DNA of 37,349 nucleotides from Hydrogenispora sp. (GTDB taxonomy: Bacteria > Bacillota > UBA4882 > UBA10575). Position numbers and translations under genes: made by a program. The stretch lies in NCBI GenBank assembly GCA_012837705.1, contig DUQQ01000097.1, forward strand, positions 1-37,349, in the 5' to 3' direction. The notes beneath the pieces are model-generated. The model saw only the letters and a list, made by a program, of their open reading frames with translations, was not told where the DNA came from and did no database searches. This document shows positions 30,247 to 32,869 of the stretch, piece after piece (the stretch's first letter is position 1; each line of letters begins with the position of its first letter).

Positions 30247-30762
30247 TCAATAAAAGAGCAAAACCACTAAAGTTCCCGCCGCGATCCCTAAATACCGGTA
30301 AAGACGCTCATTTTTTTCGCACTCTTCTTCTGCTTCCGTCGCTTGGTGTCTTAACCGTGCTATAGTTTGGCGGATCGCTGATACCTGATGTTCCCGGTCG
30401 GTGGTGCCAAGGGTCCAACCGAAATCGGTCAGCAAAGCCCAGTCTTCTGCCTTCAAAGCCAGCCCTTCCCGGTTTTGGGTTAAAATTTTCTGCCAGGCCT
30501 CATCGGCCGTTAACCCGGCTGTACCATTCAACTCCGCGGCAAAACTCGAAAGGAGCACATGCACCTCCTTCGGCAGCCGGGCGCTAATCCGCATAAATGC
30601 CTCCCCCAACGGCACGCTCCCATACCCAACCTCCGTCTCCAACCACTGAAAACACTGGACCAAAGCGTTCAACAGATGCAACCTTTTTTTCAAGAGTGTA
30701 CTATAGACCCATCCGGCCATTGTGCTGGCGGCAATGACCAAGAAGGCGCCGATCATCTTCAT
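30247..30762 (-). CDS. spoIIIAB: Stage III sporulation protein AB
   Basis: A 171-residue protein with N-terminal (about 3-20) and C-terminal membrane helices and a helical cytoplasmic part; YSTLLKKRLHLLNALVQCFQ (YSTLLKKRLHLL) and TEVGYGSVPLGEAF are typical. It shows a GspF-like relationship in the literature. ATG 30762 has GGAGGT six bases upstream and overlaps the spoIIIAA stop by 4 bp; the frame opens at 30822. Confidence 0.94.
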   Translation of the reverse strand: MKMIGAFLVIAASTMAGWVYSTLLKKRLHLLNALVQCFQWLETEVGYGSVPLGEAFMRISARLPKEVHVLLSSFAAELNGTAGLTADEAWQKILTQNREGLALKAEDWALLTDFGWTLGTTDREHQVSAIRQTIARLRHQATEAEEECEKNERLYRYLGIAAGTLVVLLFY

Positions 30763-31745
30763 CCTTTGACCTCCAAACGTTGAACTTGCGACAGTAACGC
30801 CTCTTTCGTCCGGCCGTTCCAAACCCCCTCCAGGGTCCCCGGGCCCAACCGTCGGCTCAAGACCACCACCCGCTCAACCAGTCCTTGGGCGCACAGACGC
30901 TGCAAAGAAGGGCGCAGCGCCAAATCCTTTGTATCCCACGCGTGCGCCGTGGTAATAAAGCCCACTCCCGTGTTGAGAATCTCTTCGATCAGATCCAGGT
31001 CACCGGGACGGCCGATCTCATCAGTGGCAATCAATTGCGGCCCCATCGACCGTAACAACAAAAAAACCCCTTCCCGCTTGGGACACCCCGTCAACACATC
31101 CGTCCGCATCCCAACATCAAGTTGGGGCACACCCCGATAGCTCCCGGCCACCTCGCCCCGTTCATCAACGAGCCCTACTTTGACCGGAGCGGAGCCCGCC
31201 TCGCCGTTGCTAAAGCTGCGGATCAAATCCCGTAACAGGGTGGTCTTACCCGCCTGGGGAGGGGAGATAATAATCGTGCGCAGCGGCCGGCCGTCTCTGG
31301 TTAGAAAAGGCAGCAGCTGAAGGCTAATCCCCTTGAGCTGTCGCGCAATGCGAATATTGATACTGGTCACCCGCTTCAAACGCAGCAGTGAACCCCGTCC
31401 GACCAGACATTCCCCGGCCAACCCCACCCGGTGCCCACCGGCCAAAGTAATGAAGCCTTCTTTCAACTCTTCTTCCAGCGTATATAGGGAATTACCCCCC
31501 ATCAACTGGACCGTCCGGAGGACATCGGGCGCTTCGACTTTCAGCGCCTGATCCGGTCGCGTCGTCGGTACACCGTCCGCCCGCACAAAAAGCGACTGCC
31601 CCCCCTCGACCTGCAAAGGCTGCTCAGCCCGGAGACGAATCTCCTCCAGCTTTACCCATTTTTCGGGAGCCACCCGCCGGAACTTTTCCAGCGCCCACCG
31701 GATTCTGGGTACCAGAAAGGGCAACACCTGTTCTGCATAACCCAC
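30759..31745 (-). CDS. spoIIIAA: Stage III sporulation protein AA (ATPase)
   Basis: A 328-residue secretion-type ATPase, the first gene of the operon. Walker A SPPQAGKTTLL, the VGLVDERGEVAGSYRG segment and ATDEIGRPGD (Walker B region) identify it. It is thought to power channel assembly or transport. I start at GTG 31745, with AAAGGCGGTG five bases upstream; the frame also allows TTG 31769, inside the terminator's T run. A sigma-E-like promoter lies about 50-75 bp upstream. Confidence 0.94.
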   Translation of the reverse strand: MGYAEQVLPFLVPRIRWALEKFRRVAPEKWVKLEEIRLRAEQPLQVEGGQSLFVRADGVPTTRPDQALKVEAPDVLRTVQLMGGNSLYTLEEELKEGFITLAGGHRVGLAGECLVGRGSLLRLKRVTSINIRIARQLKGISLQLLPFLTRDGRPLRTIIISPPQAGKTTLLRDLIRSFSNGEAGSAPVKVGLVDERGEVAGSYRGVPQLDVGMRTDVLTGCPKREGVFLLLRSMGPQLIATDEIGRPGDLDLIEEILNTGVGFITTAHAWDTKDLALRPSLQRLCAQGLVERVVVLSRRLGPGTLEGVWNGRTKEALLSQVQRLEVKG

Positions 31746-31767
31746 GCAAACACCGCCTTTTTGGGCC

Positions 31768-31809
31768 AAAAAAAGCCCGTCCCCTACTGTACATAAATAT
31801 GGGGACGGG
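31768..31809 (-). terminator. Terminator of the efp / CD1247-like transcript
   Basis: A 9-bp perfect stem CCCGTCCCC (31776-31784) with GGGGACGGG (31801-31809), a 16-base loop, and seven T residues on the minus strand after a C. It should separate vegetative efp-region transcription from spoIIIA. Confidence 0.85.
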
Positions 31810-31822
31810 TTTAAAAATATGC
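31794..31822 (-). promoter_or_regulatory. Sigma-E-type promoter of the spoIIIA operon, inside the terminator
   Basis: On the minus strand GCATATT (31816-31822) is a full match to the sigma-E -35 pattern (KMATATT). CATATTTA (31794-31801) resembles the -10 CATACAHT, with 14 bp between, the spacing known for this factor. Transcription would start near 31786, in the terminator loop, so the message lacks the first stem arm. In Bacillus the operon is sigma-E dependent. Confidence 0.65.
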
Positions 31823-31838
31823 TATTTATTCAGCTAAA

Positions 31839-32108
31839 CTAAGAGCTACCTTCCGTCATCTGCGCACTCTCTTCACCCTGATCATCATCCAAAGGGTAAT
31901 ACTGTTCTTCCAGATAGCCCAGATCTTCGTCGATCGCCTCGACATACTCATTTAATTCTGCTTGGTCGCCACGGATATCCTCCAGATCCATGGCGATCAG
32001 ATCACAGATATTCAAGAGTTGGGTCCAGAGGACCTGCTCTTTTTCGCCCTGAAATTCCTGACCTTGAATTAACCCACGCAAATAAGCAACTTGTTCTTTC
32101 AGTTCCAT
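31839..32108 (-). CDS. CD1247 N-terminal domain-like small acidic protein
   Basis: An 89-residue acidic, mostly helical protein. MELKEQVAYLRGLIQGQ at the start and the C-terminal LEEQYYPLDDD-type tail match small Clostridia proteins encoded between efp and spoIIIAA (CD1247-like). Function is unknown. It may be a cytoplasmic coiled coil, as heptad-like leucines run through about 1-70. It is about 90 bp downstream of efp; a weak TATACT (32139-32144) could also initiate it. Confidence 0.72.
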   Translation of the reverse strand: MELKEQVAYLRGLIQGQEFQGEKEQVLWTQLLNICDLIAMDLEDIRGDQAELNEYVEAIDEDLGYLEEQYYPLDDDQGEESAQMTEGSS

Positions 32109-32201
32109 TTCTCACCCTCCAATTCTGGTTCTGTCCTTAGTATAACTTGAGGGGAGAAAGGCTATCCATCAGCTTTTCCGTTATTAACGGCTTCACAAAC
32201 C

Positions 32202-32762
32202 CTATTTCGCTCGCCGTAAATATTCGCCGGTCCGGGTATCGATCTGCAGAATGTCTCCTTCTTCAATAAAGAGCGGAACGTGCACCACGACACCGGTCTC
32301 CAGGGTGGCCGGTTTGGTCCCACCGGTCGCCGTATCTCCCTTAAAGCCCGGCTCGGTCTGGACCACTTCCAACTCGACCGTGGTCGGGAGGTTAACACCG
32401 ATCGCTTCACCGTTGTACATCTGCACCATCACGGTCATGTTGTCTTTCAGGAATTTGACCCCGTCGCCAATGGTCTTTTCCCCCAGGGTCAGCTGTTCAT
32501 AGGTGTTATTATCCATAAAGACATAGTCATCGTCGCTCTTATATAAAAACATCATCTCTTTCGTTTCGACCCGCGCCAGTGATACTTTTTCCCCCGCGTT
32601 AAAGGTCTTTTCCACCGTATACCCGGTCCGTAGGTTTTTTAGTTTCGAACGGACAAAGGCAGCTCCTTTACCCGGCTTAACGTGCATAAATTCAACCACT
32701 GAATAGAGTTGTCCGTCAATTTCAATCGTTAATCCAGTCCGAAAATCATTTACTGAAATCAT
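32202..32762 (-). CDS. efp: Translation elongation factor P
   Basis: A 186-residue three-domain EF-P that relieves ribosome stalling at proline runs. [20 protein letters not shown]-type start ([11 protein letters not shown]), the tip lysine in [12 protein letters not shown] (about residue 32) and the C-terminal [16 protein letters not shown] are characteristic. The tip lysine is the residue modified in other bacteria. TAAGGAGG precedes the ATG, and a sigma-A promoter lies about 80-110 bp upstream. Gene order pepQ-efp is usual. Confidence 0.97.
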
Positions 32763-32839: not shown

Positions 32840-32869
32840 ATTTTATCATAGGCCCATCTTCACTGTCGA
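32840..32869 (-). promoter_or_regulatory. Sigma-A-type promoter of efp
   Basis: On the minus strand TCGACA (32864-32869) and TAAAAT (32840-32845) are 18 bp apart. The start would be about 70 bp before the efp ATG, just after the peptidase gene ends. Confidence 0.6.

Follow-up and report, generated by a model that had tools for sequence, protein, structure and literature searches.

A predicted transcription terminator with a SigE-type promoter nested in its hairpin upstream of the spoIIIA operon of a Hydrogenispora genome

Results

Genes and Features of the spoIIIA Junction

The window, a stretch of 37,349 nucleotides from Hydrogenispora sp. (contig DUQQ01000097.1 of assembly GCA_012837705.1), contains a junction at which efp, a gene for a CD1247-domain protein and the spoIIIA operon are co-directional on the minus strand. 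The efp gene (32202–32762) encodes elongation factor P (NCBIfam TIGR00038, 1.1e-80) and is preceded by a sigma-A-like promoter at 32840–32869, TCGACA-N18-TAAAAT with TG before the -10, which matches at 10 of 12 positions and is kept in the genus alignment. The last gene of this upstream unit is an 89-aa open reading frame with a CD1247 N-terminal domain (31839–32108; NCBIfam NF045650, 9.5e-18). The interval between these two genes holds another sigma-A-like site on the same strand, TGGATA-N18-TATACT (32139–32168), so the CD1247-domain gene may have a promoter to itself. The first gene of the spoIIIA operon, spoIIIAA (30762–31745; TIGR02858, 1.1e-94), is followed by spoIIIAB–AF, assigned with Pfam and reaching 27671. 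The start codon of spoIIIAA is most likely the GTG at 31745, which stands behind a probable Shine-Dalgarno site, AGGCGGTG (31751–31758), that was read from the sequence and is kept in the genus; TTG at 31769 was set aside in its favor.

Between the upstream unit and spoIIIAA lies a segment of 55 bases (31822–31768) that reads, 5' to 3' on the minus strand, GCATATT TTTAAACCCGTCCC CATATTTA TGTACAGTA GGGGACGGG C TTTTTTT. A predicted intrinsic terminator and a SigE-type promoter share bases in this segment. The terminator consists of a 9-bp G+C stem, laid out as the inverted repeat CCCGTCCCC-N16-GGGGACGGG with its 5' arm at 31809–31801 and its 3' arm at 31784–31776, followed by a single C (31775) and a T7 tract (31774–31768). 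The promoter, GCATATT-N14-CATATTTA, fits the SigE type in having an ATA-type -35 and a CATA-type -10 about 14 nt apart. Its -35 element (31822–31816) is separated from the -10 element (31801–31794) by a 14-nt spacer (31815–31802) that is mostly the 5' arm of the stem. The -10 is located inside the hairpin loop, and its first base is the last C of the 5' arm (31801). Judged by the spacing from the -10, transcription would start at 31786–31789, and the 3' arm would supply the first transcribed bases of the putative SigE RNA. Reading of the minus strand bore out the original prediction as to the extent of the segment and the placing of a stem arm between GCATATT and a -10 element 14 bp away. That prediction also had vegetative polymerase arriving from efp and completing the hairpin; an upstream transcript that could form the hairpin stands, but efp does not adjoin the terminator, since the 89-aa open reading frame intervenes.

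The complete hairpin has a predicted folding energy of -20.3 kcal/mol (z = -3.4), and none of 200 shuffled sequences folded as well. The energy falls away as the 5' end of the RNA is moved into the element, to -3.9 kcal/mol for a start at 31803, -2.0 at 31801 and 0 at 31788, which agrees with the earlier claim that a transcript starting near 31786 cannot form the hairpin. Because the hairpin is lost in loop-started RNAs, initiation anywhere in the loop would escape the terminator. When the 93-nt gap was shuffled 20,000 times with dinucleotides preserved, a qualifying hairpin arose in 40 sequences, a SigE-like site in 29 and the two together in none. The d'Aubenton-type T-tail score with a strict zero spacer is -9.7 in the window, a negative value attributable to the one C ahead of T7 under the zero-spacer setting, and ranges from -25 to +49 in relatives; the T-tracts of some f4 and f5 members are poor. 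The SigE-like motif by itself was no more frequent in the genome than a reversed-pattern control (5 versus 7 hits), so the case for the promoter rests on its place and conservation, and the genome-wide search was dropped as proof of SigE use. An origin of the hairpin in a repeat family was ruled out, as the genome has a single exact copy of CCCGTCCCCATA. The spoIVA promoters were rejected as a within-genome yardstick for SigE: their -35 (GCATAAC) is similar, and the reading of the -10 is ambiguous. Upstream of spoIVA (L169, G000:C90), a terminator, CAACCCGGAAGGGTTGTTTTTTT, adjoins a possible SigE-like site, CATATAGA; the two are adjacent rather than nested, and the arrangement is kept in most of the genus members looked at.

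Conservation of the Element

Across the eight genus members aligned, the 5' arm (8 of 8 sites, all in the spacer), the 3' arm (9 of 9) and the C with its T7 tract (8 of 8) do not vary, giving 25 invariant sites of 25. The corresponding figures are 349 of 561 (62%) for efp, 17 of 60 (28%) for the last 60 sites of the CD1247-domain gene and 5 of 16 for the sites just before the -35, so that nothing else in the junction varies as little as the two arms and the T-tract. The nearest relatives (L031–L033) are Bacillota genomes assembled from metagenomes.

The overlap extends through the class, whose members are uncultured bacteria, as the original prediction had proposed to check. Among 29 class genomes surveyed, 26 have readable DNA before spoIIIAA, and the nested element was found in 22 of these: g1 (eight genomes), g2 (two), g4, g5, f2, f4 and f5 (eight, one with a weak -10). 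G021 has a weak -10, CAATAAAA. A covariance model of the element, built without G012, matched that genome with an E value of 7e-10 and so added a 23rd nested genome, or 23 of 27; the G012 element lies near a contig edge, directly behind efp and the CD1247-domain gene, in an assembly without spoIIIAA. Other matches of the model (L207, L208, L211–L213, L215, L216 and L218) were rejected as ordinary hairpins with no spoIIIAA nearby and an unusable -10. CATA of the -35 is invariant among 19 distinct nested elements and, wherever a nested element has a CATA -10, it lies 14 nt from the -35, while loop length varies by 10 nt.

Base pairing in the stem is also maintained. Over ten stem pairs, 90.5% of the alignment cells are paired, compared with about 56% when the partners are slid by one column. 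Three pairs changed on both sides, as against a mean of 0.7 in shuffles, 5 of 500 of which had as many, in tests that make no correction for relatedness; one pair is swapped on both sides in G018. A terminator needs no fixed stem sequence. The stem core CCCGTC/GACGGG (within 31809–31801 and 31784–31776) is nearly invariant across families, beyond what pairing demands. This strictness hints at a further constraint and may be explained by another ligand, for example SpoIIID, or by the double constraint in itself.

Terminator and promoter are separate in some members of the class. In the three genomes of genus g3, a different terminator precedes the promoter, which is retained, and the 5' arm has degenerated to TATGTCC, as expected if this arm serves termination and not promoter use. 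A remnant of the 3' arm, GGGACGGGC, persists in two of the three. In f3 (G017), terminator and promoter also lie apart. A SpoIIIAA tree groups f1, f2 and f5 with support of 97/94 and places g3 inside this group, which implies that nesting arose before g3, where it was subsequently lost. f4 (G018) is placed elsewhere in the tree, whose backbone support is weak, and nesting may have had one or two origins in the class. In two g3 genomes (L176 and L175, from G015 and G014), the promoter is followed, within what would be the spoIIIAA leader, by a long G+C hairpin and its T-tract, whose ends read GCGCACGCGCCCGCCTTTTT and GCGACCCCGCCTTTTT, respectively; this hairpin could be a true attenuator.

Outside the class, the promoter core [CA]ATAT[CT]TA occurs with an ATA-type -35, either alone or behind a separate terminator. 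With the -35 aligned, 11 of the 81 loci that lie outside the main set of class genomes showed the same -35/-10 core, not nested, upstream of spoIIIAA. The promoter therefore looks to predate the hairpin. Automatic calls of nesting at spoIIIAA outside the class (L068, L074, L082, L090 and L102) were rejected on account of a weak -10 or a separate upstream terminator.

Similar Elements at yqfC and yabP

The covariance model also matched hairpins in other families, before the sporulation genes yabP (G105, L214) and yqfC (G164, L217). Across 131 yqfC upstream regions, we identified 28 terminator-like hairpins a short way ahead of the start codon. CATA is present in 24 of these 28 proximal hairpins versus 3 of 47 more distal ones (Fisher p = 1.8e-12, an optimistic value, as related genomes are counted singly). 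By a strict reading by eye, 18 of the 131 genomes, from 13 families, are nested as at spoIIIA, and their stems differ widely in sequence. An example is G175, where TAATTTT-N14-CATAAAGA lies inside TCCCTTCCCGGGG...CCCGAGGAGGGGA, followed by TTTTTT and ATG. At the nested yqfC loci the 3' arm (GGAGG) is a probable Shine-Dalgarno site as well, and the T-tract forms the spacer to the start codon. This combination of predicted terminator, SigE-type promoter and probable ribosome-binding site in a single segment occurs in many families, as at L217 (1501–1549) and, near 1400–1500, at L220, L224, L226, L234 and L243. A same-strand open frame ends just upstream in most of seven yqfC loci inspected; in G216, where the layout is nested, a YqfB-like gene precedes yqfC. 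The nested element of G105 (L214, 1501–1565) precedes yabP-yabQ downstream of a SpoIID-like gene, with GTG directly after the T-tract.

Discussion

The segment at 31822–31768 is very probably a nested terminator-promoter that would silence spoIIIA during growth and allow SigE to start the operon from within the hairpin loop. In growing cells, sigma-A transcripts of efp and the CD1247-domain gene would include both arms, the G+C hairpin would form and RNA polymerase would stop in the T-tract, leaving spoIIIA silent. In the mother cell, SigE polymerase would engage the -35 and -10 that straddle the 5' arm and initiate in the loop, at about 31788. Of the terminator, the resulting RNA would carry the 3' arm and the U-tract but no 5' arm; it could not form the hairpin and would run on into spoIIIAA. 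The hairpin's role as a terminator, the use of the promoter by SigE and the exact start are inferred from the DNA, and the segment seems to be a genuine gene insulator of compact form. The original prediction that 55 bp both insulate the operon and start it thus gains support, with sequence, comparative and folding evidence all in keeping with it. The layout would shield the operon from read-through and not the promoter from occlusion, because vegetative polymerase must cross the -35, the -10 and the start before it stops. Sequestration of the spoIIIAA Shine-Dalgarno site was considered as well and rejected, as the two RNAs differ little in this respect (0.38 versus 0.47 unpaired).

Assignment of the promoter to SigE is consistent with what is known of the operon. 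SigE is encoded in G000 (TIGR02835, 417.7 bits) and matched in all 29 class genomes. The spoIIIA operon is SigE dependent in B. subtilis and C. difficile (PMC517825, PMC3789829, PMC3789822), and spoIIIAA transcription is lost in a C. difficile sigE mutant (PMC3789829).

The most serious alternative is that an ordinary terminator and an ordinary promoter happen to overlap, each working as proposed, the nesting itself being unselected and a product of compaction only. Short junctions easily drift together, and other Bacillota often have a terminator merely 4–20 nt ahead of the spoIIIA promoter. We nonetheless consider this the lesser possibility, because the overlap has been kept across the class though either part could shift, as in g3, and because nesting recurs at yqfC with the -10 retained in the hairpin. 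A different view of the inverted repeat, as the operator of a protein such as SpoIIID and not, or not only, as a terminator, could account for the near invariance of the CCCGTC/GACGGG core over the class. SpoIIID is present in 26 of the 29 class genomes, and in B. subtilis it represses spoIIIA, bound over its -35 (PMC517825). An operator would not require the one-sided T-tract that is kept here, nor does it sit well with the stem pair swapped on both sides in G018 or with the loss of the 5' arm in g3 once another terminator was present upstream. GGACGGG differs from the SpoIIID consensus, WWRRACARNY, and on balance we regard an operator as improbable.

It is more doubtful still, and in our judgment very improbable, that the hairpin is an attenuator within a longer leader whose true promoter lies further upstream, the loop sequence CATATTTA being coincidental. 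A terminator hairpin ahead of a start codon has the usual look of an attenuator, and sigma-A-like promoters are present upstream. Coincidence is at odds with the retention of the -35, the -10 and their exact 14-nt spacing both in nested members and in g3, which lacks the hairpin, and with the occurrence of the same promoter core on its own in other Bacillota. Rfam leader families gave no match above threshold, the best (E = 0.54) falling far under the gathering score.

A single hairpin serving two neighboring units is familiar from the E. coli frd terminator, which is also the ampC attenuator. The ampC promoter lies upstream of that hairpin and ampC RNA does form it, whereas the downstream RNA of the nested element could not. 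Terminator-promoter overlap as such is already known: at Salmonella tufB-secE (and at secE-rpoBC and S10-spc-alpha), an operon's terminator overlaps with the promoter of the co-directional operon that follows, gene order is conserved and the overlap matters (PMC7055797). The tufB-secE genes serve vegetative growth, whereas here the second promoter is of the sporulation SigE type and its -10 falls in the loop of the hairpin; the two outputs would therefore belong to different cell states. In B. subtilis, a SigE promoter likewise lies between yqhV and spoIIIAA, the first gene of the same operon, but no terminator is apparent after yqhV and read-through into spoIIIA is thought to occur (PMC517825). 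At B. subtilis yqfB-yqfCD, tiling arrays indicate that yqfB is followed by a terminator and that part of the transcription passes it into yqfCD, a SigE operon; the parts of that report consulted do not discuss an overlap with the promoter (PMC3498285). A literature search, which covered few subscription papers, turned up no account of a terminator with a sporulation promoter nested in it, and the loop-borne promoter, its deep conservation and its recurrence seem undescribed.

We somewhat favor the broader view that nested terminator-promoters are a general insulator of Bacillota mother-cell operons, evolved repeatedly around a pre-existing SigE promoter, in which the 5' arm would double as promoter spacer and the hairpin could be folded only by polymerases arriving from upstream. 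The rule would be that a start inside the loop forfeits the hairpin, and one segment would thereby stop one polymerase and start another. Such elements would explain, with no need of extra DNA, why growing cells do not express sporulation operons that lie tightly behind housekeeping genes, and they offer a design for compact one-way insulators. At yqfCD the 3' arm probably doubles as the Shine-Dalgarno site, and any RNA leaking through from upstream would then be not only terminated but also left untranslated.
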